Shown here in pieces: positions 3,487-55,300 of a stretch of DNA of 64,000 nucleotides. Source of the stretch: Sphaerolaimus hirsutus (Eukaryota; Nematoda; Chromadorea; Monhysterida; Sphaerolaimidae); contig OZ038450.1 of NCBI GenBank assembly GCA_964036195.1, positions 13,642,701 through 13,706,700 of the forward strand, written 5' to 3'. The notes beneath the pieces are model-generated. The model was not told the origin of the DNA and searched no databases. It saw nothing but the letters and a program-made list of their open reading frames with translations. The translations under genes were made by a program, and so were the position numbers. Position 1 is the stretch's first letter, and the number at the start of each line of letters is the position of its first letter.

Positions 3487-3756
3487 GGGGCAGTCCCAAG
3501 TTCTGTAAACGGTAAAGTAAAGTGTCAAATGTCAATTTTCATGCAAAGTGTCAAATGAAAAGCAAAGTGTCAATTGTGTATCCAAATCTTATTTTGCTTA
3601 TCCAAATCATATGTTTTTGTATCCAAATCTTATGTCGAAAACTAATATTTGGGTACTAAAAATAAGCTTAGGATACACAATTGACACTTTACTTAACATT
3701 TGACTGTACATTTGACACCTTACTTTACACTTTACAGGGCTTGGGACTGCCACCAG
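3487..3756. mobile_element. Introner-family element without a donor GT, upstream of PLCL
   Basis: The ends GGGGCAGTCCCAAG and CTTGGGACTGCCAC are inverted repeats, and CAG occurs immediately outside both (3484-3486 and 3754-3756). The interior repeats the AAAGTGTCAA motif of the intronic copies at 12129 and 54765. Where those copies start GT, this one starts GG, so it cannot supply a donor. It lies just upstream of the first PLCL coding exon. Confidence 0.7.
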
Positions 3757-9800: not shown

Positions 9801-12800
9801 TAATAAGTTGAGGAGATATGTCAGTGTAGTAAATAATATCCAGCCAATGTGCTTCCACTTTTCTACACTGTGAAACATCACTGTCATGTATTAGCCATCT
9901 TTTATAGCCAAATTGAGGCACTATTCCATGCCTCACTTCACTTGCAGTCACGAAACATTCAAAAACGGCGATATACATAATTAGTCGACATAAAATTGGA
10001 TTTTTTTTGGCAGAAATCAGCACTTATAATGCTATCAGATGATTACATAGCCATTCTATGGTTATATATCATCACAAGTACTGCCACTTGTCTGATATAC
10101 CTGTATATATTGACTCAGGACCATATTTGGGAGCTTTTCAGGTAACGTCTTGACAATTTTTGAAAAAAAGCAAAAAAAGCGCGTTTTTTTAAAAAAAAGC
10201 GCTTTTTTTAAAAAAAGCAGGGTCGTTAAAAAAAGCGCTTTTTTCCATCCCTAAATTGCCGCCCCCGCCAAAGCAACCTGAAAAATTTTGTGAACACTCC
10301 ACCGCTAGACCAGTGTCTTCACTTTCCAAAAATTAAAATATAAATTTGCATGCATACATGAATTTATCCACCAATGCCTCAAGAAATTAAGGCACAAAAT
10401 CACACCAAAAACTACAGGGCAAACGCCTCTCACCCGCATCAGTAGACGCGACCAGCTGCGACTGGGTCGGTCCAGTGTCAGAAGAAGACGAGTCGATCGA
10501 ATCGGTGACAAATCGACGCCCGTCGAATCGACGGAGGTCGAGAACGATCGACATGGCCAAACAACTGTCCGATTTGATGTGTCCGTTTTTGATGAGCGCC
10601 AAGTTAAGAGATTTGGGCGCGGTGGCGGCAGATGGGGCTGATGTCGGTCACGGAAAAGTTTATAATGTGCCTGAAACTAATGGTTGGTTTCGAGTTGTAA
10701 TTGTGCCACCAATAGTTGTGGCTCGGCGATGAAAAAGAACGGTAAAGAAATTGATTAATTGATTGAGTGTCACGTGCCTTTTAATGACTGGCGCGTAGGT
10801 TTCATATAGGATTCACTTCTCAGGATTGGGGTCGGGATCGAAATTTTGGACAATGGACCTTTTATACTCGGATGACATTACGCCGTACATTTGTCCGGAG
10901 GAAACACTCCATCATGACGCCATCACTTTTGTCCCGATCATAATCTCTCGCCATCACGCCCTCTTCATCACACCTTCCATAAGTTCTCGGCTGGCCGTCT
11001 GCCAGCCCAAGACATAACTCCTATCTGTTTGTAGAGTATCGTGTCTGCCGAGTATACTGACATTTTGGACAATCAAGGGTTCCTTTAACTTGGGTGTCAG
11101 AAAACTCGCGTAGATTGGACACTGGAGGTTTCCATTCACATTTCAGAGTGCAAAAAGTCATTTAACTGAGTTAGCATATCATTCCGGAATCGGGATTGGA
11201 ATTTTAACAATTTCGACATTGGGATTGGATTGGATTTCGGGTCGGGATCAGGATCAGGATTGGGGTTTCGGAATTTGGATAGGGACGTCAAAATCCGAAA
11301 AATTCGGGATCCCGTTTGAACTCTACATGTGGTACCCAATCCTACATTAAACTGTTTCACACATGTGAAAAATCCAGCACCGGTCACGCAGCACTGAGAA
11401 TGGCTCAAGCGCAGCCGGACGAACTCTCACTGGTGGCCAAGAGAAAGCTGATCAGAGTCTATCCAAATTCGAGCGTGCGCGTAGATTCGTCCAATTTGAA
11501 CCCGCTGGAAATGTGGAATTTCGGCGTGCAATTGGTCGCGCTAAATTATCAAACGCCTGGCTTGATGATGGATTTACAGGTGGGCGAAGGGAAAATTAGC
11601 GTCGTTTACATGAAGTATTTTCAGGAAAATGTCCCACGGCATGTTATTCTATCAAACAAATTCATTGTGGGGAGGTATTAAAGGGGAACATTTTGAGCTA
11701 TATTTTTAAGATACGCTTCTACTTTAACAGCACCTAATTCAATTTTTTTCATAATGAATCACAAAAAAATTACTAATACCTACATTCAGATAAGAATTAC
11801 CTGCTGAGTTTTGTCTCATTTGGCTGAAAACAAACCATAATGTTAAATGGCGAAATTTATCAGAGCGGAGTTCCATCTTGAAGTGGGCCAAAAAACGACT
11901 ACTAGTGCCATAAATACATTGACGCTTTTCCACTACAAGTAAAATGAATACCATTTTGCCACCGCTCACTACCAACCAGTAACCACGCAGGAAGGTAAAT
12001 TCCGCGCCAACGGCTCCACCGGCTACATCCTGAAGCCGAATTCGATGCGCGACGATATGCACGCCGAAAATCCGACCCGGTCGCGTGCCAGCTCAGCTGC
12101 GGCATCGAGCAGCACGATGGGACAGCAGGTGCCACTCCCAGACCCTGTAAAATGCCCTATAAAGTGTCAAATGTCATGCAAAGTGTCAAAAGTCATGGAA
12201 AATGCCCTGCAAAATGGCAACCGAGTTGTTATTTTGCAGGGTATTGACCATGACTTTTGACACTTTGCATGACTTTTGACACTTTACAGGGCATTTTACA
12301 GGGTCTGGGAGTGCCCCCAGGTTTTGCACTTGAAAGTGATTTCGGGACAGAATCTGCCCAGACCCAGGGGGTCTACTGCGAAGGGGGACTCGGCCGACCC
12401 TTTCGTTGTTATTGAGGTGAGTTTTTCTGGGTTGATTTGTCACTTGAATATTTATAGGGGGAAAATGCTTAACACTGGCAGGGCGGCTGCAGCCGCGATC
12501 TACGATAGCAGCTTCAAATTTACGGCAAGCTGTGACGAAAATGTTTCAAATGAGCAAAAAAGTTAAGGTTCAGAAGCAATGTGAACATTTCAACAGCAAA
12601 AAAACCTAAAGGAGTTAGAAAAAACCCTTTTAGATAACTTGACAGACTGCTGGAATGACGCCAGGCATATTTTATCAACGTTATCTGGCCCAAACTTTTA
12701 GATCCTGTCCACACATAAAAATATCATCACGTGGTGATGACCGTTTCTGTACCGTAAAAAAATCATCACATTTTTTAAAATTTACAACCCAGATTTTCGG

Positions 12801-15689
12801 CGCCCCGTGCGACTGCGCAGAGGAGCGCACCAGAACGGTCAAAAACTGCGATTTCACTCCAACTTGGGATGAATCATTTCAATTTCAATTGGCAGTTCCA
12901 GAATTGGCACTAATCAGATTTCTGGTTCTGGATGATGATTTTATCGGCGACGATTTCATAGGCCAATTTACACTGCCGTTTGAATGCATTCAGCCTGGAT
13001 ACAGGTGAGAAAAATATCACATATTGTCATAACTTTCTTGTCACATTTTTTATCACTCAAAAACATTCAAAACGAACAGAATATTGTGGTATATTACTCG
13101 CTAATCGCCGAATCGGATCCAGAACTATACGCGGCGGACCGCAAATTTTTTATGTGCAGAATGTTTCCATTACCTAATGAATGAAATTTTGTGATAAATT
13201 TCGTAATCCTTCCATAATGTAATGAATGAAATCTTGTGATAAATTCCGTAATTGATTATTCCACAGTAAAAGGAATTATTTTGATGAAAAAAAACTGTAT
13301 AATGTCTGGTTCATCATTCAGATGGGTTATGGTAGCTTTCCATATAAGTGTGATGTCCGCCGAGTATACTAAAAAGCCACCCCATCCACAACCCAGACAC
13401 ATCCAGCTGCTGAACAACGAGGGCGAATCTTTAAGCCCCGCCTCCCTATTCATCCACACGGCGATCACCAATCGGCGCGGCGGGGGCAAGGCTCGCAAGC
13501 GGGGCATGTCGGTCAGGCGCAGGGCGCTGCACAAGGTGCACACCGGCGTCAAGATGTTGGGCGTCAAGCAGCTCGACGACCTGTTCAAGGAGGCCTCGGT
13601 GCCGCTGGCCGAGTGTATACAGTTGAGAAACGCGGTCGAGGCTGCCATGGTCGAGTGGCAGGTGGGCGGAATTTGTGGTTTTTAGCACGTTGAACACACT
13701 GCGATGTGACGCTGAATAAATACAATTGGCCCACACACACTAGTTTACCATTATGAAGCGCTCGACCATTTTGGTAAAGTGTTTCACAAAACAGTACGAA
13801 ACACTGTACAGAGTTGTACACAGTTTTGTACTGTTTTGTGCAAACCGTTTACCGAAATGGTCGTGCATTTAATGATGGTAAACTAGTGTGTGTGTGTGTG
13901 TGCGCCCAATACATGTTTATGTAGATGTTTAGATGCAAGCGAACACCGCTTTGCAAACATTTGCAACGTTTGAATAAGCCATTGTGTTCGAATTCGATCC
14001 ACCCCTGATAACGATAAATGCAGAACTTTTTACAGGACACCACAGGCATGGGCACAACAAGCACCATGCGCCAGGGCATGCGCCTGCTGCACAACCGCCT
14101 ACTAGCTACGCTGCCATCGACCACAAATATCAATGACGTTCAGACTAATTCAAATGTTGGCGATGTGCCAACTGAGAATACGGCTAGTACTCTCAGTGTT
14201 GTTATAAATGCACCAACTAGCGATGGTAATGCTGCGACAGTTAGCGATGGAAATAAAGCACCGAAAATTGGACTGTGTGTGGTGCTGGATGAGCATAGAG
14301 TTAGTCATATTTGAACCTTTGACTTTTACCTACACCTGAGGTCAATCCGTCGCATCGTGTGACCTGACAGGATGAAAATGGTAAACTTTAGAATGATACT
14401 TAAAACCCCCAAAATGATACTAAAAAAAACCCCGGTAATATGAATCCCCATTTTAAAAGTCGTCACTTGGCAGGGTTCCACATTCACACTTCATTTTTGA
14501 TCACAATCTCCACTACACAAATTATATACCCGCCCAGCTGCCCACCGTGGACGTGCAGCCAGCCGAGGCGGCGAACACAGCCCCCGATCAAGTGCGCAAG
14601 TGTCTCGTCGCTTTGCAACACTTGCTGGAGAAATCTAGAGGCATCATAGAGAGTACAGAGCCATTGCTGCAGAAGGTAGTTTTGTAGGGTGTTTTGGTAG
14701 ATGTCTAGACTCTAGAATATCTCTGTGTATACACAAATTGTGTTTTATGTGACCATTTGAAAGAGTTAACGGCACCTGCAAAGATGATGATAAAGGCCAG
14801 ATGCCGTGAAAACATTTTTCTAAAGATGAGCTCACAAGCACCTGATTTGATTTACCAAAATCGAGAACTAAAATACGTAATTTGCGAATGTCCACGAATT
14901 TAATATGTCCACGAAGACAACTTCCAAAAAATCTCACAGCTCGAAGAGTCGACTCACCGAATAGCAGATTCCTATGAAGAACTGACAATATTGTGTTCGC
15001 AAGCTGGTTTGAAAGGCCAGAAAGCGACCAGAGCAACTGAAAACTTTGCTTGGAATTTGAGACTGCTGAAAGCTCAATTAGACCTCATGTGCAGGGCGCA
15101 GATGGATGCCAGCACAACGATACAGCAGGTAACTGGGTTTCTAACATATCGAGATGTGAATATATTGCATAAATATCCATTATTATGAATACATAATTTA
15201 CCTACAAAAAGATAATTGTGAATGCATAGATTCAAGTAATTTGGGAAGTGACCTTCTCTCACACGCCTCACTTAATCATCTTAATCAGAACACATATGAT
15301 AGGGTTTAAAATCTATTTTTAAATGCTTCTTTTCTTAAAAATCAATAAAAAATTGATTTTACAAATTAAAATCAGATACTTCAATGACGCAAAAGTGGGT
15401 TTAGACCAAGAAAATATAAATATCAAGTGACAGAGACTGTGACAATTTATTGTTGATGCAAAGCCATGAAAAACATAAAATTCAAAATTTGAACCACCAT
15501 GTATATACCCTAGAAGGAATTCCTTACCCACCACAGGTAATAGACAGTGGTTGCACAATGGGCATTTTGGTGCCTCCATGCAAAATCCAGCCATGCATGC
15601 ACCAGCCGACACCAACAGCCAGTCCCAGAGTGGAATTAAATGCAGTCAATTCTTCTCATGAAAAACCTGTTCAACCCTCTGCGGTATAA
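3879..15689 (+). CDS. PLCL: Phospholipase C-like protein (PLCL/PRIP family), about 1225 aa
   Basis: Exons: 3879-4042, 4831-4937, 5461-5610, 6026-6235, 6676-6727, 6789-6918, 6984-7160, 7226-7319, 7789-7992, 8689-8821, 9108-9481 (end uncertain), 10443-10682 (start uncertain), 11392-11579, 11991-12128, 12321-12416, 12793-13004, 13397-13661, 14036-14299, 14538-14675, 14940-15128, 15537-15689. All junctions agree in phase except the linker junction after 9474/9481, where a small exon may be missing. Domain order is that of PLCL (human about 1,100 aa), and family phrases such as [13 protein letters not shown] and ITNRRGGGK are present. PLCL proteins bind inositol phosphates, phosphatases and GABA-A receptor trafficking factors in the cytosol and at membranes. 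The start ATG is the first in an exon open from 3813; an upstream exon may exist. Confidence 0.93.
4831..6235 (+). CDS. PLCL: PLCL N-terminal motif and PH domain exons
   Basis: Exon 4831-4937 encodes the conserved [12 protein letters not shown] segment just before the PH domain. Exons 5461-5610 and 6026-6235 encode the PH domain: GSELTKVRS near its start, [10 protein letters not shown] in the strand that usually packs against the phosphoinositide pocket, IKEVRVGKN, and IWVTGLMAL in the C-terminal helix. In the family this domain binds inositol phosphates and PIP2. The junction 5610/6026 gives [11 protein letters not shown], matching the spacing in vertebrate PLCL. Confidence 0.9.
6379..6613. 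mobile_element. TATACTC-family MITE in a PLCL intron
   Basis: Inverted ends TATACTCCGCAGAC and GCGGTCCACTGAGTATA enclose a body with GGAACACTCCATCATGACG. The family recurs at 7518, 10863, 13126, 17130 and 24246. The terminal TA suggests Tc1/mariner-type TA targeting (inference). Confidence 0.7.
6676..7319 (+). CDS. PLCL: PLCL EF-hand-like exons
   Basis: Exons 6676-6727, 6789-6918, 6984-7160 and 7226-7319 encode the EF-hand-like module between PH and X domains. Recognisable pieces are [35 protein letters not shown] and [10 protein letters not shown], the last two being hallmarks of the PLC EF region. The intron 6728-6788 is only 61 nt, showing that short introns are normal in this genome. The loops lack a complete set of calcium ligands, as is common in PLC EF hands. 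Confidence 0.88.
7518..7771. mobile_element. TATACTC-family MITE ending 17 bp before a PLCL acceptor
   Basis: Ends TATACTGGGCGGACC and GGTCCACCGAGTATA are inverted, and the interior shares GGAAACACTCCATCATGACA with the copy at 6379. Its right end lies 17 bp from the first base of the X-domain exon at 7789. Confidence 0.7.
7789..9481 (+). CDS. PLCL: PLCL catalytic X-domain exons
   Basis: Exons 7789-7992, 8689-8821 and 9108-9474/9481. Exon 1 has [20 protein letters not shown], the junction 7992/8689 rebuilds IELDIW, exon 2 has [12 protein letters not shown], and the junction 8821/9108 gives [12 protein letters not shown]. The two active-site histidines (SHNTY and HGHT, about residues 399 and 448), the Asn, the E-L-D pair and the later Glu all appear present. 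From memory, vertebrate PLCL has Thr where HGHT has its first His. About 80 residues of Ser/Arg-rich, poorly conserved sequence precede LRGKILL. The lysines that normally follow GKILLK are not seen, partly because the exon end is uncertain. Confidence 0.85.
8026..8273. mobile_element. CCGTATTTCCTCG-family MITE in a PLCL intron
   Basis: Inverted ends CCTTATTTCCTCGAAATACC and TAATTCGAGGAAATACGG, with TA at both borders. The body is nearly the same as at 2684-2947, which suggests both copies are fairly young. Confidence 0.75.
9543..10253. mobile_element. TAGGGATGG-type hAT-like element in a PLCL intron
   Basis: Ends TAGGGATGG and CCATCCCTA, with AAAAAAGCGC/GCGCTTTTTT inverted sequence next to each end. 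The flanks read ATGCCGCC and TTGCCGCC, an imperfect 8-bp target duplication. The core (TTTTGCGCGCAAGC, then TGGTGGTTGTTTTCATTG) is shared with the elements at 19066, 36975, 45403 and 61833, so these are one family with diverged ends. Confidence 0.75.
10443..12128 (+). CDS. PLCL: PLCL X-Y linker and Y-domain exons
   Basis: Exon 10443-10682 starts with an acidic stretch ([10 protein letters not shown]), then basic Arg-rich sequence, then AKQLSDLM, which matches the start of Y in PLCL. Exon 11392-11579 gives [20 protein letters not shown] and [11 protein letters not shown]. Joining 10682 to 11392 keeps the 33-residue spacing of vertebrate PLCL exactly. Exon 11991-12128 has [19 protein letters not shown], then a Ser/Ala-rich tail ending at the introner intron. 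The Tyr in RVYP is the canonical PLC residue (vertebrate PLCL has Phe, from memory). Confidence 0.87.
10863..11056. mobile_element. TATACTC-family MITE in a PLCL intron
   Basis: Ends TATACTCGGATGAC and GTCTGCCGAGTATA are inverted, and the body has GGAAACACTCCATCATGACG as in the copies at 6379 and 7518. Confidence 0.65.
12129..12320 (+). mobile_element. Introner: an entire PLCL intron made of one inverted-repeat element
   Basis: The 192-nt intron starts GTGCCACTCCCAGACCCTGT and ends with the inverse, ACAGGGTCTGGGAGTGCCCC, followed by CAG. The whole intron folds on itself: roughly 85-90 nt arms pair across a loop near 12217-12232. The 5-prime exon ends CAG and the intron ends CAG, so the acceptor AG may come from a 3-bp target duplication. 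The flanking exons (ending MGQQ, resuming [11 protein letters not shown]) join in phase 0 at the Y-C2 boundary. The same element forms the intron at 54765-54917. Confidence 0.9.
12321..13004 (+). CDS. PLCL: PLCL C2-domain exons
   Basis: Exons 12321-12416 and 12793-13004 (plus the start of 13397) encode the C2 domain: [28 protein letters not shown], then [33 protein letters not shown] and [20 protein letters not shown]. This is a close match to the PLC C2 sandwich; the acidic DDD and GD positions are those that bind calcium in active PLC isoforms. Confidence 0.92.
13126..13368. mobile_element. TATACTC-family MITE ending 28 bp before a PLCL acceptor
   Basis: Ends TATACGCGGCGGACCG and GTCCGCCGAGTATA are inverted. 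The body carries AATGAATGAAATTTTGTGAT twice with small changes and is shared with the copy at 24246. Confidence 0.7.
13397..15689 (+). CDS. PLCL: PLCL-specific C-terminal region exons
   Basis: Exon 13397-13661 has [27 protein letters not shown], and [15 protein letters not shown]. These are specific to PLCL rather than to active PLC-delta, so this exon decides the family. Exons 14036-14299, 14538-14675 and 14940-15128 give helical sequence ([17 protein letters not shown] and [18 protein letters not shown]) as in the PLCL coiled C-terminus. The last exon, 15537-15689, is a Pro/Ser-rich tail ending PVQPSAV, with no match I recognise. The Thr/Asn-rich part of 14036-14299 is lineage-specific. Confidence 0.9.
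13741..13885. repeat. Short palindromic MITE in a PLCL intron
   Basis: ACTAGTTTACCATTATGAAG on the left is answered by ATGGTAAACTAGT on the right. The inner halves (CGACCATTTTGGTAAA and TTTACCGAAATGGTCG) also pair, so nearly the whole 145 bp folds into one hairpin. CA repeats flank one side and TG repeats the other. Confidence 0.7.
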
Positions 15690-19340: not shown

Positions 19341-19790
19341 TACCGTATTTCCTCGAAATACCCCCGGGGGGTTTATTGTTTCAGAGTGAGAATTTTGAGG
19401 GGGGTTTAAACGAGGGGGGGGGTATTTCGAGGGGGGGTTTATTATTTCGCCAAATTTTTTTTGAAATCCCAGTACTGAAATGTCGTCTGAAACGTACGCA
19501 GACGTCAAAAATGCAACAAAAATCGCCATTTATAAGACTCTAAAGACATTTATAAGTGTGTAGACGTACAAACACTGTTCTCACATAACAGAGTCATCGT
19601 TTTTAACGTGTGTTCTGCATTGCCCGGATGACAAACGCAAAGCCTTTGTCATTTACGTTCTCTATACACTAAATTTGGGGGGGGGGGTATTTCGAGGGGG
19701 GGGGGTTATAAGTTCATAGTGTCCATTTTGAGGGGGGGTATTTCGAGGGGGGGGTATTTCGAGGGGGGGGTATTTCGAGGAAATACGGTA
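19341..19790. mobile_element. CCGTATTTCCTCG-family MITE nested in the 19066 element
   Basis: Inverted ends TACCGTATTTCCTCG and CGAGGAAATACGGTA with TA on each side. It interrupts the host where sister copies read TTGCTGTAGTATATAATATT without a gap (compare 62080-62100). This confirms a TA target duplication. Confidence 0.85.
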
Positions 19791-19916: not shown

Positions 19917-20985
19917 CAGAGTTGGTTTTATAAAAATTCATTTTAGTAAAATTGTATAAAAATTGTATAAAAATTTTATTTTATTTTTATTTTATTCTTG
20001 TTTCATTTTATTTTATTTTATTTTATTCCCAAAAGTCGTTAATAAAATAAAATGACACATTTTACAAAAATTTTACAAAAATTTTACAAAAATTTTACAA
20101 AAAATCAGAAACATGCATGCAAGGCCAGAAAAATGTTATAATTAGACCTATACATGAAAAACCTGTGACAAATTTTTCCCTTTCTTTTCAAAAGTTGCAT
20201 GCAGTATGTATTGTTAGCTAGCTGCAAGTGTAAAGTTACAATTATTGATAAGAATGGTTTGCATTTTCAGTAGAAGGACTACTGGAGTGTGCTTGGCACA
20301 TTTGTAAAATGTCATGCAAAGTGTCAATGGTCATGACAAATGTAAAGTAAAGTATCAATTGTCATGCAAAATGTCAAGTGTCATGTAAAATTTCAAGCAC
20401 AGTGGCAATTGTCATGACAAATGTTATGCAAAGTGTAAATTATGTATCGAAAATTTGTGTTTTTGTATCCATAGTATGTTTTATATCCAAATCTTATGTT
20501 TTTGTATCCAAATGTTCACATAAGATTTGGAGTCAACAACAACATAATTTGGATACAAAACATAAGATTTTGAAATAAAACATGAGATTTGAACACAATT
20601 TGCTTGACAATTGATACTTTAATTTTTACATGTCATGACAATTTACACTTTACTTTACATTTGTCATGACAATTGACACTTTGCATGACATTTTACATGA
20701 CATTTGACACTTTCCAATGCTTGGGACTGCCCCCAGATCCATGAAAAAACAGGTAGAGACTCAAGCAATGAGACAAAATTTTACAAAAAATATGAATTTT
20801 TATACAATTTTACAAAAATACGAATTTTTATACAATTTTACAAAAATTTTACAAAAATTCGAATTTTTATACAATTTTTATTTTTATTCTTAAATTTTCC
20901 ATTTTATTTTATTTTATTTTATTCTTGAATATTCCATTTTATTTTTATTTTATTTTTATTTTTTTCTGAGATTTTGCCAACCCTG
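19917..20985. mobile_element. TTTTATTTTA-rich hAT-like element nested in the 19066 element
   Basis: The ends CAGAGTTGGTTTTATAAAAA and TTTTGCCAACCCTG lie between identical GTCACGAA duplications (19909-19916 and 20986-20993). It contains ATTTTACAAA and TTTTATTTTA repeats and, inside, a diverged introner-family element. Confidence 0.85.
20281..20736. mobile_element. Diverged introner-family element inside a nested transposon
   Basis: The right end CTTGGGACTGCCCCCAG matches the family end seen at 3756 and 12320. The interior repeats TCATGCAAAGTGTCAA on the left and its inverse TTGACACTTTGCATGA on the right. The left end is degraded. It is not inside any gene I can see. Confidence 0.65.
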
Positions 20986-31450: not shown

Positions 31451-32049
31451 ATGCCCGCTAGATTTGCACAAAGGTCAGTGGGTTTTGGTCAGCGTTGGGA
31501 TGGAACTGGGTTCTGGGCTTCAATCCAATGAGAACGATAGGCGCTAAATATTATGGCAAGTGCATTGGATGATCGCTCTGCGACACGTGAAGCAGAAATC
31601 TGAGTAGACACAGACCAGGGACCAGTTCCACAAATTGAGAAGTGAGAAGTAAAATGGCAAATGCGAAGTGAAATGGCAAAAGCGAAGAGAAAATACTTCT
31701 TTTTTCACTCCGATTTTGCCAAATTACTTGCCATTTCACTTCACTTTTGCCATTTCACTTCGCTTTGGCCATTTTACTTAGCACTTCTCAATTTGCGAAA
31801 CTGGCACCAGTTGACACACGTGTCAACTAGTGTGGGCCGCCAAAAATACCTTTATCAACACCCTACAAATCCCACAGAGCCCCATGCGGGTCGATAGCCG
31901 ATCGAATGCCAACAATCTACCACAAATACGAATGCTACTTCTGGCCGCGCTTCGGTATTTACCATGAGCCGCCAAAACCGTCGCCGGAAAAGTTATCCCT
32001 GGTTTATAGGACAAAGCCGAGAGATTGGAGGGACTTTTTGTGGAACTAA
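31451..32049 (+). CDS. Candidate third Trp-rich small protein gene
   Basis: Last exon 31878-32049 encodes YHKYECYFWPRFGIYHEPP, then LVYRTKPRDWRDFLWN and TAA. FWP...EP followed by a W-R pair resembles the third exon of the 22024 gene (FWPHMYTATEP, LEWRYH). A good donor (AAAGGTCAGT) ends a candidate first exon at 31473; in the joining frame the only ATG is at 31451, giving a 64-residue protein. The overlapping frame from the ATG at 31237 is also open (74 codons), reads like protein (ALWRVQTVQNAR at its end) and stops at 31461, so the true 5-prime structure is unsettled. Confidence 0.45.
31636..31797. repeat. Hairpin repeat of GCAAAAGCGAAG type
   Basis: GAGAAGTGAGAAGTAAAATG on the left pairs with CATTTTACTTAGCACTTCTC on the right across about 160 bp, with internal AATGGCAAA/TTTGCCATT repeats. 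It lies in the intron of the candidate gene at 31451. Confidence 0.65.
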
Positions 32050-36744: not shown

Positions 36745-39700
36745 TCACCCCAGACCGCTGGTCAGACTAGCCTTCTGCATCAATTCAAACTGTTCATTTT
36801 CCTTATCCGTGCACACCTCATTCTGTTCATCGAGGCTCATTTGTGCGAACTTCTCCGCCAATGAACTGCAGTGACGCTTGTGTTCGAACCAGTGGAACTT
36901 TTGACAGTCGGAACTGCAGTAGTTTACCTGCAATTGTTTGTTGTTGTTTGTTTTTTTTGGGGGTGTAATCAGGGGTAGGGTTGGAAAAAAACTTTTTTTT
37001 TTAAATCGATGTTTTTTTTTAAAAAAACAACGTTTTTTTTAAAAGCTCCCAGATATGACCTAGTGTCAACATATATAGGTATATCAGACAGTGGCAATAC
37101 TCTGTGATGTTAAATATGACCATATAATGGCTGTGGAGCCATGGGATAGCATTATAAGTGGTGATTTGTGTCAAAAATATCCATTTTTCGTCGACATATC
37201 GTTCGTATATCGCCTTATAGTCGAATGTTCCTGACTTCAGGTAAAGTTTGGCACGGAATAGTGATCAAACAAGGTTATAAAAGGAGGTTGTTACTTTGGG
37301 AGTGAAGTCACACACTGTGGAGGTACATGGAAGCACATTACCTCAATATTATATATTACAGCAACATATGTCGGCTTATTCACCCATGGTAGCACATAGA
37401 AATGGATGTTTTGATACTAAAAATGCAACAAAACCAATGAAAACAACCACCAATGTCAATTTGTGTGTGAAATTGCGCACTTGCGCGCAAAAATTTTGCA
37501 AAATACCTAGTGCTTAGTACTAAAAATTTCGGCCGATGTTTTAAAAAAAAAAAAACATTTCGGACGTCATGTTTTTAAAAAACAACAACGTTTTTTTTAA
37601 AAAAAAAACGTTTAAAAAAAACATCGGCCAACCCTAATCAGGGGAATCCCTTTTCTGGTTGGAAACATTATTATTCACATAAAAATTAATTTTCAATCGC
37701 AATAGCTATCTGTCCACCCGTAAAAATTTACTTAGCTAATCATTACATTACATAAATCATACATACCGTATTTACTCGAATAATTCCCCGGGGAATTATT
37801 TTTTCGTCAGACATTTCTGAGGGGGAACTATTCGAGGGGGGAATTATTCAAGTGGGGGGATTATTTAATTTTCCTCAAAATTTTCAAGCATGTATCTATC
37901 ACACAATTAACACATTTTGTCCTTGTGGCCGCTGCTAGTGCACATTCCATAGCATCTTTGCACGCCGGATGTGCTGCATTTACATTCGATGAATCAAACC
38001 AGACACAGCTTGCTCTGCTTCATCGGTTATTTAAAAAAAACATGTGCATTTAAAAAATTATACCATCATTGGGGGGGGAATTATTCAAGTGGGGGAATTA
38101 TTTTTTCCTCACCCGTCTAACAGGGGGGAACTATTCGAGGGGGGAATTATTCAAGTGGGGGAACTATTCGAGTAAATACGGTACATTTACATCATCATTG
38201 AGTGCCGGCATGCAAAGGTATATTTTATGTAAATAGGTAAAAATTTCAGTTTACTGATCAATGATGTAAATATATTCCATACATCGACCCACTATCCACG
38301 TACTTTTCCGGTCCGGATTTCACTTTTTAAAGTTGTCTTTTCAAAAGTGTGTTGTCGTAATCGCGCTATCCAGAGACTTCACTCAACACCATATAAAATT
38401 TCTCAGCACGAGAAAAATTCACAGACACGTAATTTTGCGACGAAAAAGTTCAAGCCGTTGCAAAAAGTATTCGGCGTGCAAAATGGTGAACAAGGGATTC
38501 GATATTACGATAGCGCTGTTTTTCATCACGATGATTATCCTGGCCACCGTGACAGTGGTTCGATTTTTAACGGTTTTTTTTGTTGCAAAATTACACGAAT
38601 AAAAAATCCTGGTAAAGTTGTCGTTCAAACTGTTGAGTATGAAGAATCGTTTACAATTGCTTGGAGTTAAAACGGGGTGATTGTGATCCAGAGTGGGGCA
38701 AAATTTCGGCGATTCTGCAATTTGTTAAGTGTGACAAATGTAAGTATCAAGCGGATGTAAAGTGTTAAATAACTTGATTGGTGACATCACTTCACCTAGG
38801 GTTGGCACTTGATTTTTTAAACTGATTTAAAAAAAAATCTGATTTTTTATTGTAAAAAATCAAGGGGTGGAAACTGATTTTATTTAAAAAAAGCTAAAAT
38901 GAAAAATTCCTGGTAGACTTGCACTAGGTATTTTGCAATTTTTTGCGCTGCAATTTCTAATACACATTACCATTGGTGATGTTTTCATGGGTTTTGGGGC
39001 ATTTTTAGTGTAAACGTTTGCATTTATTCATGCTACAGTGTAATAATAAGCCGTGATATGCTAGTGTAGTATATAATATTCAGCCAATGTGCCCTCACAT
39101 ACTTCTACAGTGTGTAGCATCACTGTCAATGTATTAGCCTTCTCTTACAGCCTTATTTAGGCACTATTCCATGCTTAACTTCACTTGAAGTCACAAACGT
39201 TTGACAAAATGCGATATACGTAACAAGTCGCCATAAAATGGATATTTTTGAATGAAATCACTGCTTATAATACTATCCCATGACTCCACAGTCATAATAT
39301 GACCACAATAGCCATAACAATAAATTGTCTGACACTTAGCATAGACATATTCTCTATACCCCATTTTGGGCGATTTTTAAAAAAATTGATTTTTTTTTAA
39401 ATAGAGGCGTTCGAAAAAAATTTGAAGATTTTTTTCTAACCCTAACTTCACCTATGCTTGAATGTTCACAACAACTTTAATTGAAACTTGATAACATACA
39501 GAATTGGCACCGAAGGGGCCACACACGCTGGATGTCAACTGAATTCGTGTCAACTAAATTTTAGTGAATTGTGTGATTTCAATTTTCCTATCTGATAGAG
39601 CATAGTTAATTTTACATAACGACACGTAATTCTCATTCTTTCTATTTTCTTTTGTTCTAATCGTTTTTTTTTGTGTTATTTAGTTGACATTGACACGGAT

Positions 39701-42700
39701 TTAAATGACACGAATTCGCGATGTCAACTATCGTATTTATGTGGGCCCTAAGTGTCATTATACCGTGACCAGGCTCCAACACTTAAACTTTCAGATATAC
39801 GATGATGGGATCTCGGGTGTGATAATGATGGCGGCAGCGATGTCAGTGTGCTTGGGGCTGGTCGTGACGTGCGTACTAGTCCACAGAAGACGAATGAACC
39901 ACACCAGTGAAGGGAGGTGAGTTCATAATATAAATTATGGTGTAATTATGTCTGATTTCAGCACGAAACTTACGCGTCCCTTCTCACGCATTCGCAACAT
40001 TTTTCATTCTCAGTAGTTCATTTGTTTGAATTTAAATACAGCTGAATATGTAAATAAATATTCAACTCTATACCATTGCCAATTCGGAATTTTTTGGCTG
40101 TTTTGGCCTGAAATTTTTTTCTCTCGCGTATCTATGCATCCACGAAAAACGACTCACTATCACCACGTTTCCACACACTAAAAATGCCTGCTTAACCCAC
40201 AAAACCGTCTGGGCGCACCTAGGGTTCAAACGGGATTTACTTTTCGGGATCGGGATCGGGATTCACTTTTTGAGATTTCGGGATCGGGATCGGGATCGGG
40301 ATTGGCCGGGATTGGGGTCACGGGATCGGGATCGGGATTGGCATTTTTTCGGGATCAGGATTGGGGTCTAGGGATAGAGATTTTTGTCACTGTTCTGGCA
40401 TTCACAGTTGTTCATAAAGGTCTCAAAACACTGTTGGATGCCAGAAAAGTGACATAAAATGGATGCTGGGGGTTTGCGTTCACATTTTTGCACGCAAAAA
40501 TGTCATTTTTTCACTTTCACTTTAATTTTCACTATTTTTTCCGGGATCGGGATCCCGGACTTGGGAGATTCTCGGGATCGGGATTTGAAAGTTTTCGGGA
40601 TCGGGATCGGGATTGGTATTTTTGGATTTCGGGATCGGGATTGGGGTTTCGGGATCGAGATCGGGATCGGGACTGCTAAATCCCGGAATTTCACGGGATC
40701 CGGGATAGGGTTCAAACGGGACCAGTTTTTCTGACCGGGACCGGGACCAGAAATTTTCTAATGTCGGGACCGGGACCGGGACCGGGACTGGGGGGTCGGG
40801 ACCGGGACTGGCTTTTTTCAATTGTCGGGACCGGGACCGGGACCGGGGGGTCCGGACAGGGACTGGGATTTGCCGAACCAGGTACCGGAACTGCGGTATT
40901 GTTTGAACCTTATTGGTATGTTGTTCCACACACCTCCACTGTGTGTAGGACCACTCTCAATGTATTAGCCTTTTCTTATAACATTATTCAAGCAGTATTC
41001 CATTGCCATCTTCACTTGAAGTTGTGAATACCGTATTTCCTCGAAATACCCCCCCCTTGAAATACCCCCCCCTCGTTTGACCCCCCCCCCCCTCTCGAGA
41101 CCACTATGAAACAATCACCCCCCCCCCTCGAAATACCCCCCCCCAAATTGAGTGTAAAGGGAACGTACATGACAATAACTGTAGTTTGTGTTCAGTGTAC
41201 TGCAGAACACACGTTAAAACAATGTCGGTGTCACGTTAGAACAGTGTACATACCATCTACATACTAATATTAGTCTACAGAACCTTATAAATGGCGGTTT
41301 TTGTTGCATTTTTCGACGTCTGCGTACGTTTCAGACGACAATTTCGTTCTTGGTTTTCAAAAATTTTCTTGTGAAATAATAACCCCCCCCCCCTCGAAAT
41401 ACCCGCCCCCTCGTTTAACCCCCCCCCTCTCGGGACCACTATGAAACAATCACCCCCCGGGGGGTATTTCGAGGAAATACGGTATTTGATGAAACGCGAT
41501 GTACGCAGGATTTTTTTGGGAGGGGGGGGGGCGGCGCCAGTTGTAGGTGCCAACGCCATGGCAGTATTGGCGCTGACGTTGGCGCCAACGTCTACAATAT
41601 AGGTATCTTTATATACCTATATTTCGTACTAGAATCATGTTGGGGACCTTTCTAACGCTGTCACTTTATGGAAAAATACATAGTAATCATTGGCTGGGTA
41701 TATGCGCGCTTGCGCGCAAAATTTTTTTAGATGTTTCTACAGAATCGCATTAGAAAAGTGCCATTTCTGGCAAATTTTTTTTTGAAAAATACGTTTTTTC
41801 CATGCCTTGTCGGGACCGCTATAAAATTCCGGGACCGGGACCGGGACTGGGTGGTCGGGACCGGGACCGGGACTGGCTTTTTTTAATTGTCGGGACCGGG
41901 ACCGGGACTGGGGTGTCGGGACCGGGACCGGGACCGGGACCGCCCCAGTCCCGACTTTTGGCCGAACCATGTACCGGGACCGCGGTCCCGTTTGAACCCT
42001 AATTCGGGATCGGGATCGGGATCCCGTTTGAACCCTAGGCGCACCCCCGCAGAGTGGTCAGACCAGGCCCCTACACGGAGCGGCTGCCCACACCCCGCCC
42101 AGCGCCCAGACTTCCCGCCCGCCCCGCCGGGGGTAGCGTGTCGTTCCCACCCCCTGCCCAGCCGATCCCACCCCCCGTACCGGAGACTTTGGGTAGCGAG
42201 GAGGTACCGCAAATGCCAAAGACACCGTCGACAAAGACTCATAGGAGACCGAGGGTGACTTGGAATCGAATTTATTTCTAACACTAGTTGTGTTAAGTTG
42301 ACTGATAATTGAGGCGTCTAATTCTAAAAGTCGACTAGTCCACAAAATGCGATTTTGGTGCGTGTCCAATTTGGCTCTCTCATGCTTTCCATTAAGTTCC
42401 ATATGTTCACAATAAAGTGTCAAATTGTCAGCCCCTGCTCTCGACCTATATGTGAAAAATGGGGTGTCCATCAATCTCCATTTGGTCAGAACAACTGTTT
42501 CGGGGGGGGGGGGGAATGGACTTGTCGACTTGTTGCACGCGCGAACATTTTTATTCATGGCAACGACGAGGCTGCCTTAAGGGAAATTTATGGACTTGTC
42601 GACTTTTAGAAATCGGTTTCCACAGTGGACTTTTCACATTTCTTGCTTTTTCCTAACAAAAAAGACGAACGGTTGACTTTTAGCCCAAAACAAGTGGACT

Positions 42701-52300: not shown

Positions 52301-55300
52301 TTTATTGGATGCCCATGCTTTTTAAAGATTTTTTTCCAAAAGACGGCAAAAAACACCGGCCACCCCGACATGTAGGATTTCAACAAACATCTTTTTAAAT
52401 GAAAACAACTGCCAATGTCAATTTGTGTTTGAATTTGGCCATTATATTGAGTTTCACGCACATTCACTCACCCGTTTTCGCAGAGCCACGATGACTCCAC
52501 GACACCCTGCTCCACACCACCATTTGAAGTTTTGCCTGCACATCGCGCCGCTAGTGTCGCTCCGAACTTTGGCGTGATTGCAGCTAACACTGGCTTGCAA
52601 TCCAATATTGAATCGTGGGTTTGAAGTTTACATATTTATCATTTGCCATTTTTCCTTGTGTCTCCCAAAATCTCTCAATTTAATAGGGACGAAACAGAAA
52701 CTTGTGCGTCTGGCATAGATAGGTAGCTGGGCGGTTTGGGGGGGGGGGGGGGTTACCTCCTCATTTGAGACCCCTGTAGCCATATAATAACATTACCTGG
52801 AACCATGACATTATATTTAAGTGGCAGGCCAGTTGTCTTGTAGATTTGAACTCCTACGGGGGTTCATATATTTGGTTGCTAAATCCCTCCGGGAGGGATA
52901 TAAATGTGGTGCAATATTGTGTTCCATAAAGTGTTCATAATCATTACGCGACAACCCCACTCAGTACACCAATTGCCTCAAGGACGACTCAATCATCCAG
53001 TGATGAAACGCAAGCCTACAAAATATCGGCCACGCCCAGCAACCAGACTGAAATGCCGCATTCGTCTGGCTCCGCCCCAATTGTAAACCAGCGCGGCCGC
53101 AAATCGCGCTGCAAAGTGCCCTGTCCAAAATGTGACCAACTGTTTACAGACAAGGGTCTAATTTCACATGAGAAAAATTGCTGTGGGAAGGCGCGGCTAT
53201 TGGCGGTTCGTTTGCAATTTCTGTTTATCTATAACCCCCTTGTCGGTGATTTTAAAAAAAGTAGACAATTTGTAAAAAAAATCTATTTAAATATCAGGGT
53301 GTTCTGAAAAATCGATTTTTGACCAGCCCAGAGTAGGGATGTCACTGTTTTAGAGTCACTACTGTCTCGGGGCCATTATCGGGCCTGGATAATCCTGACA
53401 GTTTTTGTGGTTTCACTCTGAACTAGTGATGTAAAAAGCGCCAGACTTTTGGCGCCAAGCGCCATGGCGCTTTTCCGGAACTGGCGCCAAGCGTATGGCG
53501 CTTTTCTGGACCTTAGCGCCAAGCGCCAAAGGCGCCACGGGGCCATGGCGCCAAGCGCCAATGGCGCCAGCGCCAAAATGATATTGCCTTTAATGATACA
53601 GGTGAGACAAAGTATTATTTTCTTCACCTTCAATTACTGGTATTGCCTACAAAAACACAATGGTCAAATAATGGAAATCAATAAGTTGTCTTGCTCAACA
53701 CACAAGGTTAACTAAGACAGGTTCAAATAGATAGCAAATTGCCTCTCTGAAGTGGTAGAAGCTGAAAGATTGTCTGGGGGTTGGGGGTTGCAGTGTTTCA
53801 ATTTATTGGATTTTTCAAGATTCAAAGTGCAAACTGTGAGATAACAGGGTAAAAATAGCTAAATTACATATCTGGGTAAAATACCTACCGTATTCCCTCG
53901 AAATACCCCCAAGGGGTTTATTTTTTCAGAGTGGAAATTTTGAGGTGGGGCATTTCGAGGGGGGCTTATTCGAAGGGGGGGGGGAGTTATTATTTCGTCA
54001 GAAATTTTCGGGAAAGTCATACTAAAGAATACGCTTTTACATACCCCAAACCGGTAATAAACGTGACCAAATAGGGTATGTAGGGACATACAGGGACGTA
54101 AACATACATCGCTACACAAAGTAGCGTATACGTAAATATAACTGCGATGCAAAATGGTCGCAAAAAATACATCATGTTCCTTGCATACATGATGTACCTT
54201 ATTCCAGAGGGGGGGTATTTCGAGGGGGGGGGTATTTTTCCTCAGCTCGAAAACACCTGGGGGTATTTCAAGGGGGGAGTATTTCGAGGAAATATGGTAT
54301 GTAAAATAATTACATACATGGCCAAAAATTGCTGAAAATAAGCAATAAGGCACATGAACACCGCGGCGCAATTATCACTCTCTGGCGCTTTTTTGGCGCT
54401 TTAAAAAATGGTAGCGCCAAGCGCCAATGGCGCCACTGGAAAGTAGCGCCAAGCGCCAAAAGCGCCATGGCACTTTTCGGAAACACGGCGCCAAGCGCCA
54501 ATGGCGCCAGAGCATTTTAGCGCCAAGCGCCATGGCGCTTTTTGCTTTGGCGCTAGCGCCAGGCGCCAGCGCCATGGCGCTTTCACATCACTACTCTGAA
54601 CCAATTTCTGATACACCATTGTTGCCGAAACCATTTTACAGCGAAAGACCGTGCCCGCTCCGCAAGTTGACGCGGCAGCGTCCAGTCCCAAGGCAGTTGC
54701 CAAGGCAGCGCTTTCGGCTGAGCGCCCGGCGCCATTTCCAGCTCCAAGTTTCGCCAGCCGCCAGGTGCCACTCCCAAACCCTGTAAAGTGCCCTGACAAA
54801 TGTCAAATGTCCTGTAACATGTTTGCCATTTTGCAGTGCATTTTCCATGACTTTTGACACTTTGCACGAGATTTGACATTTTACAGGGCACTTTACAGGG
54901 TCTGGGAATGCCCGCAGAAGAGCGCGGCAAAAACGCCTCAAGTGGCGGCCGCGGCTCGCACCGAGAAACACGTCAAGTGTAACCACTGCACTTTGCTGGT
55001 CGAGCGGTCGCGACTGCCGATGCACATGGAGATGCTTCACGCTGATGTTCAGGACGTGCAGGTGAGTTATGCTGGGTTTTTTTGTAGTTTAGTTTTGCTA
55101 TTTTTAGTCACACTCAAAGTGGCGCAACACCTTCGCACAGCAGTCTCCAATATTTGAACTCAACTCTGTGGTCTCCAATGGGGGTCGTCCAGTTATCTAT
55201 CAATCCGCGCAATACATCCGCAAAATATGTGTCTATCGCTAGGAAAAAATTTTGGCCACTGTTCCCTGAACCCCCGTCCCAAAAAAATCGACCAGCTATC

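Follow-up and report, generated by a model that had tools for sequence, protein, structure and literature searches.

An intron-like interval in a phospholipase C (PLC) gene is very probably an introner, namely a non-autonomous, CWG-duplicating MITE of a PIF/Harbinger-like (NuwaI-like) type that was pasted into an exon. It lies in the window, which denotes the whole 64-kb stretch (64,000 nt) of DNA that was analysed. The interval (12129-12320) reads GTGCCACTCCCAG...CTGGGAGTGCCCC followed by CAG, and a further CAG precedes it (12126-12128). Its arms (12128-12221 and 12225-12318) were 90% complementary over 94 nt and were separated by a loop of 3 nt. The 251-nt stretch around the element was folded as single-stranded DNA and gave -102.5 kcal/mol, compared with -32.1 kcal/mol (SD 3.5) in the shuffle control (z = -20), and 0 of 200 dinucleotide shuffles were as good. 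The sequence-only reading had described the intron as exactly one inverted-repeat element, and the near-perfect palindrome, the GT..AG borders and the CAG on both sides bear this out.

The flanking exons, which comprise 46 codons upstream and 32 codons downstream, the latter followed by gtgagt, were read by eye and share a common frame, and two in-frame stops are met when the element is read through. A query protein was assembled from four exons, namely these two and the next one on either side, with exon borders placed by eye. In a PDB search, it matched PLC zeta at 1.3e-36, and PLC zeta and delta were matched over 170 residues; in Pfam, the C2 domain (4.2e-18) and PI-PLC-Y domain (2.9e-16) were found. 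The junction falls within the variable linker between PI-PLC-Y and C2, so that the left flank lacks high conservation, and the PLC copy alone is no proof of exact removal. Thus, of the earlier claim that the exons encode contiguous, highly conserved PLCL sequence, the PLC family and the single frame held, whereas the left flank proved to be a variable linker and the PLCL subtype was unsupported.

Table 1. Features of the window and family copies that interrupt a matched protein. Positions are those of the window; for copies, orientation is relative to the protein.
Feature or copy	Position	Strand or orientation	Basis, or match across the junction	Borders
Left target-duplication copy, CAG, also last codon of the upstream exon	12126..12128	+	Sequence; CWG on both sides in 26/36 set-1 copies	
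MITE proper, 189 nt, GTGCCA / TGCCCC ends, near-palindrome	12129..12317	+	Sequence, fold, 38-copy consensus	
GT donor from the GTGCC end of the element; opposite end GGGGC	12129..12130	+	Sequence	
Right target-duplication copy, CAG, gives the AG acceptor	12318..12320	+	Sequence	
Internal AG of TTTTACAG, 19 nt before the border, out of frame in PLC	12300..12301	+	Sequence; would help define the 3' end	
Second internal AG at -9, in-frame alternative adding 3 residues (GGGAG-type copies)	12310..12311	+	Sequence	
Upstream exon: end of PI-PLC-Y domain and linker	11991..12128	+	Sequence, Pfam, PLC match	
Downstream exon: start of C2 domain, then gtgagt	12321..12416	+	Sequence, Pfam, PLC match	
Second family member, 150 nt + CAG, CAG before, within one open frame	54765..54917	+	Sequence, consensus set	
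Copy L001		Sense	PLC	GT..AG
Copy L011		Sense	VMAT, 4.5e-24, ungapped at junction	CTG/CTG, TG border
Copy L037		Sense	FERM, 1.7e-9	CTG/CTG, TG border
Copy L039		Sense	PFAS glutaminase domain, 2.6e-28	GT..AG
Copy L045		Sense	Haem peroxidase, 4.9e-30	GT..AG
Copy L049		Sense	7tm_2 (7TM receptor), 1.6e-10	GT..AG
Copy L096		Antisense	QTMAN_N, 4e-21	
Copy L104		Sense	HSP60, 5.7e-28, gapless (PDB); Pfam below cut-off	GT..AG
Copy L106		Sense	Sterol-sensing/Patched, 9.6e-19	GT..AG
Copy L120		Sense	BCKDHA, 2.6e-11, ungapped at junction	CTG/CTG, TG border
Copy L122		Sense	Sugar_tr, 2.2e-15	CTG/CTG, TG border

Within about 115 kb, the flanks of the second family member recur five times, always with a gap of ~150-190 nt at that point, and elements were confirmed at three of the five places (the window and two others). 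The protein that it interrupts had no Pfam match. Other inverted-repeat elements were observed in the window. A different palindrome at 31618-31811 (GGACCAGTTCC...GAAACTGGCAC between two CAG, with a CWG duplication and an GTGCCAGT end) is perhaps a sister MITE family sharing the donor-like end. A short element at 13732-13894 has the ends CACACACTAGTTTACC; in L112, the letters CACACTAGTTTAC also stand close to a DDE_Tnp_4 gene of an abundant kind, and this element may therefore be the MITE of that transposon. Repeated elements with ends of about TACCGTATTTCCTCGAAATA, whose interiors are often C- or G-rich, occur at five places in the 64 kb (2684-2947, 19341-19790, 37764-38183, 41027-41486, and 53895-54226), and diverged relatives lie at 3487-3753 (GTCCCAAG-type ends between CAG and CAG) and at 20303-20733 (ends GGGACTGCCCC followed by CAG).

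A palindromic family with CWG target duplications

To count the family, a genome of 348 Mb in 762 contigs was searched. The terminal 26-mer with at most two mismatches gave 7163 matches (3591 + 3572), in which one copy may match at both ends, and its reversed-pattern control gave 0. A strict pattern, with the whole element between C[A/T]G, gave 1193 copies with GTGCC and GGGGC ends, a count that includes duplicated contigs and segments; 31 copies under the strict pattern had GGGGC at both ends. The sequence-only reading had proposed a search with the terminal sequence as a check, with few copies speaking against it, and the family proved to be large. Forty copies (set 1) were chosen without regard to their flanks and scored, and flanks were fetched for all 40. 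Three composite or ragged copies (L007, L026, and L027) were left out of the tables, leaving 37 copies, or 38 with the second window copy; L018, the version of L019 on a second contig, was left out of most tables.

The consensus of the 38 copies was 189 nt long and matched its reverse complement at 180 of these positions. Its tips differ at positions 2 and 4 (GTGCC versus GGGGC), and GT is therefore present at one end only. One end is GTGCCA, which supplies the donor, and the other is GGGGCA; written in full, the ends of the family are GTGCCANTCCC and GGGGCANTCCC. The median divergence of sampled main-subfamily copies from the consensus was 8-11%, and a search for empty sites at 8 of 22 prepared sites found only interrupted places, in an assembly that may be collapsed. 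The earlier suggestion that the family is active now or was so recently is thus unsupported.

CWG was present on both sides in 26 of 36 set-1 copies, with the W identical in 24 of these 26, and a clean CWG pair was missing in 10. In the strict genome count, 579 copies were CAG/CAG, 361 were CTG/CTG, 185 had CTG on the left and CAG on the right, and 68 had CAG on the left and CTG on the right; W agreed in 940 of the 1193 copies, although the pattern itself demands CWG, and 253 were mixed. The target duplication, given as a 3-bp CAG from the window, is therefore corrected to CWG, which leaves 429 of the 1193 strict copies without a border AG. The flanks of 87 copies showed a preference of about CCAC-CWG-GT. 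Fish Harbinger elements have a comparable ACCWGGT target, and CAG followed by G resembles exon junctions (the proto-splice site).

Terminal inverted repeats and the CWG duplication, both hallmarks of spread by transposition, were found. The accessible part of PMC4482050 describes the NuwaI group of PHIS (PIF/Harbinger-ISL2EU-Spy) as restricted to animals, with a 5'-CWG-3' duplication and a TIR usually starting with GGG. The present family shares the CWG duplication with the NuwaI group as it appears in that part of the source, and one of its two ends starts with GGG (GGGGCA). Unlike NuwaI, it is a short non-autonomous palindrome with GTGCC at its other end, and no linked DDE or Myb/SANT gene was found. 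On its target duplication, the family is assigned to MITEs of the CWG-duplicating PIF/Harbinger-like, NuwaI-like type.

DDE_Tnp_4 gave 163 matches in the genome, with 150 of the 306 candidates scored. Across the genome (e.g. L107-L112), more than 80 transposase matches of the PIF/Harbinger type had almost equal scores with E below 1e-13, and most of them span 633 nt for 147 profile positions, contain in-frame TGAs, and are apparently intron-bearing; their abundance is perhaps the mark of a young burst. The extra 192 nt in these matches was considered as the element itself, and this was rejected because a consensus BLAST against L107-L112 gave no hit. An autonomous partner with the family ends was not seen in the stretches L107-L112 (3.6 kb each) and L113 (4.8 kb), and these candidates were not confirmed.

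Copies within coding frames and their orientation

To investigate whether removal of the element restores known proteins, the element and one CWG were removed from 100 copies, and the joined flanks were scanned with Pfam. For 30 copies, one frame each was picked by eye (28 of them sense), and for 70 copies, the best sense and best antisense frames were used; L045 and L035 were hand-joined at a border shifted by one base. A match was counted as strict if it ran across the junction and either passed the Pfam cut-off or reached a value better than 1e-10 in PDB, the PDB search covering 7 of the 100 copies, picked by eye. Eleven copies had a strict match (Table 1), and 89 had none. Ten of the 11 were in the sense orientation, as were 5 of 6 among the copies offered in both senses, and 6 of the 10 homology-supported sense copies had GT..AG borders. 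In-frame stops were found within the element in all eight copies checked, seven of which are among the 11 matched copies. Similar copies reach up to the borders in the unrelated genes for PLC, PFAS, peroxidase, HSP60, Patched, and 7tm_2, where the frames suggest introns, and the alignments of HSP60, VMAT, and BCKDHA, whose flanks join gap-free, suggest insertion into an exon with the transcript unchanged. The introner interpretation of the sequence-only reading, in which the element ends give GT and the duplication gives AG, gains support from these one-frame interruptions of known proteins, and the letters support its substance, that the PLC intron belongs to a large introner family.

Several other candidates were not counted. 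By eye, L034 appeared guanylate-cyclase-like, L032 SMYD-like, and L020 SAM-like, with no convincing match. COMM in L099 was below the cut-off, Kelch in L065 was below the cut-off and stops at the junction, and DUF6349 in L055, permease in L028, the S8 pro-domain in L021, and others were also below the cut-off. The antisense strand of L024 looks coding, by eye only. L096 (C1:12859963-12860660) is an antisense insertion in an exon of a tRNA-queuosine mannosyltransferase-like gene; in the gene sense, its borders are neither GT nor AG, and it contains an internal GTAAAG...TTTACAG pair.

The orientation of the copies was also assessed with a codon score, for which 16 set-1 copies served as training data and which was applied to set 2. 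In three classes of the main subfamily, the sense score exceeded the antisense score in 36 of 42 copies (Wilcoxon 3e-7), and the same held for 8 of 11 main-subfamily CAG/CTG copies. Subfamily B showed no sense bias, with a higher sense score in only 6 of 17 copies, and in its CAG/CAG and CAG/CTG classes the sense score was above 0 in 0 of 12. Open frames of 25 + 25 codons, sense versus antisense, numbered 17 versus 13 in CAG/CAG, 14 versus 13 in CTG/CAG, 7 versus 8 in CTG/CTG, and 8 versus 9 in CAG/CTG, so that sense frames were hardly commoner in three of the four classes. Our confidence in the introner interpretation was slightly lowered by subfamily B and by this count. A coding score trained on itself came to follow base composition, gave equal sense and antisense values, and was discarded.

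An ordinary MITE family that landed in intergenic DNA or in introns already present, the PLC borders being a coincidence, would account for the 89 copies without a strict match, for the two subfamily B classes without a sense coding signal, and for a PLC junction within a variable linker. We consider this highly improbable, since removal of the element and one CWG restored the frames of HSP60, VMAT, PFAS, peroxidase, Patched, BCKDHA, and the sugar transporter, and since the in-frame stops and the sense bias of the main subfamily also speak against it. Another explanation, in which the exonic copies escape splicing, disrupt their genes and were segregating in the individual that was sequenced, would suit the exonic CTG/CTG copies without a border AG and the antisense L096; it is improbable as well, because a sense bias is unexpected under it, because the sampled CTG/CTG copies are not younger than CAG/CAG copies (median divergence 0.079, n = 10, versus 0.085, n = 17; p = 0.37), and because the eight searched sites gave interrupted places only, again with the proviso of a possibly collapsed assembly.

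The introner explanation, which we prefer, can be laid out in steps. A transposase acting in trans would insert the element at a CCACCWGGT-like site and duplicate CWG; the target preference and the duplication were observed. At a CAG site, a sense copy yields CAG followed by GTGCC......CCCC, the second CAG and G, as can be read in the sequence; the donor would then be the element end and the acceptor the duplicated CAG, in a target that already resembles an exon junction. The spliceosome would excise the element and one CAG exactly and bring back the old frame, as suggested by the restored conserved proteins and the in-frame stops. Sense copies would be tolerated and pile up as introns, an outcome in which selection is presumed and to which the orientation bias of the main subfamily points.

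CTG copies and the acceptor

Insertion at a CTG site results in GT..TG borders. If a border AG were required, CTG copies would be expected to disappear from exons; nevertheless, four of the 10 sense copies with homology support (L011, L037, L120, and L122) are CTG/CTG and have TG at the border. The codon score was higher in sense than in antisense in 9 of the 10 CTG/CTG copies that were sampled; this sample, the smallest, consisted of the first listed places and, unlike the other sets, of subfamily A only. In most copies inspected, TTTTACAG or a close form was present 19 nt before the border, and it was missing in L030, L038, and L123.

Szafranski et al. 2007 (PMC2374985), in its accessible part, reports human TG acceptors only as an alternative to AG, within 28 nt. 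On this ground, it is proposed that the AG at -19 defines the intron and that the border TG is ligated. Hundreds of CTG/CTG copies could then be GT-TG introns, in which the near-constant TTTTACAG sets the 3' end, ligation takes place 19 nt downstream at the border CTG, and the hairpin holds the ends together; we put this forward as a tentative possibility. If it is true, a CWG transposon landing in exons in the sense orientation would yield, in half of the cases, introns that depart from the AG rule, and some of these would later be improved to CAG. The alternatives are the use of internal AGs with protein changes, or poor function.

To examine the use of internal AGs, 14 exonic-looking CTG-right copies, picked by eye, were tested for in-frame GT-AG options with donors at -15..+20 and acceptors at -60..+36. 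The explanation that splicing of exonic CTG/CTG copies uses internal AGs (-9, -12, or -18), with a few residues added, and not the border TG, is favoured by 4 of the 14 (L034, L037, L114, and L117), in which the border donor can be combined with an in-frame internal AG adding 3-4 residues, and by an in-frame AG at -18 in L030 and, by eye, in L035. Against it, four copies (L011, L033, L043, and L120) had no in-frame option in the searched range, six of the 14 need residue loss or another (upstream) donor, and the usual AG at -19 in TTTTACAG is out of frame. If the donor is allowed to lie further inside the element, L011, L033, and L043 gain in-frame options adding 18-29 residues. The AG at -9 was considered as a rescue of CTG copies and is not general. 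Splicing at internal AGs is thus a doubtful account of these copies, to be held no more firmly than the GT-TG proposal.

Neutral, strand-symmetric change at W would be expected to give equal numbers of CTG/CAG and CAG/CTG copies. The excess of the former (185 versus 68; binomial p = 1.1e-13) could reflect selection for an AG acceptor in genes, an explanation to which we give an even chance. Eight CAG/CTG copies, near-identical in letters, lie within 0.8 Mb (C9:24.96-25.76 Mb), with look-alikes on C15, C16, and C591; this group is probably a duplicated segment, and because eight of the 68 copies look like one duplicated copy, the contrast would become stronger. The numbers of CAG/CAG (579) versus CTG/CTG (361) are also in favour, as are the sense scores, which were higher in CTG/CAG than in CAG/CTG over both subfamilies (20 versus 20, p = 0.03) and were above 0 in 4 of 5 CTG/CAG versus 0 of 9 CAG/CTG copies of subfamily B. 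However, the sense scores did not differ in subfamily A (15 versus 11, p = 0.76), and copies with CAA on the left and CAG on the right (3) versus CAG on the left and CAA on the right (6) did not show the expected asymmetry. This next-base G-to-A change is far rarer than W flips, suggesting that W may flip during insertion or through conversion among the copies. Selection on the acceptor is therefore not proven.

Host code and comparison with known systems

Tunicates read AGA/AGG as glycine. COX1 on contig C762 was stop-free with TGA as Trp and had AGA/AGG at expected serine sites, indicating an invertebrate with code 5 or similar, which presumably argues against a cnidarian or tunicate host.

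Introners explain bursts of intron gain and are thinly documented in animals. In this family, the target duplication allows the transposon type to be named, the target (about CCACCWGGT) serves at the same time as a proto-splice site, and the palindrome is interrupted at the donor end. The CAG/CTG split provides hundreds of cases in one genome that differ in one acceptor base, and RNA-seq would therefore give a direct measure of how far AG is needed. New here are the type of transposon, a donor that arises from the break in the palindrome, and the CTG half, which makes the AG rule testable within one genome. In the literature searched, which covers few subscription papers and preprints, no description of a CWG-duplicating introner was found.

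In the accessible part of the survey by Gozashti et al. 2022 (PMC9860276), introners are found in only two animal groups, with copepods named; PMC10597677, likewise accessible in part, lists Oikopleura among the earlier introner reports and, for a bdelloid rotifer, suggests a single introner-like intron. The present family resembles the introners in the accessible text of PMC9860276 in its similar introns across unrelated genes up to the borders, its TIRs, and its short target duplications. The division of the borders is that described there for the Chrysochromulina introner, with the donor on the element and the acceptor from the duplication. It differs from the introners in that text in its 3-bp CWG duplication, the CTG half of which leaves GT..TG borders. 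The human TG 3' splice sites, as far as the accessible part of PMC2374985 describes them, also have an AG nearby, here mostly that in TTTTACAG, 19 nt before the border; unlike them, the putative TG here would be the sole short-range in-frame acceptor in some copies. The larvacean Fritillaria (PMC13326754, accessible in part) is an animal whose genome has introns that break the GT-AG rule, as is proposed here; a difference is that COX1 in the present host has AGA/AGG at the expected serine positions.
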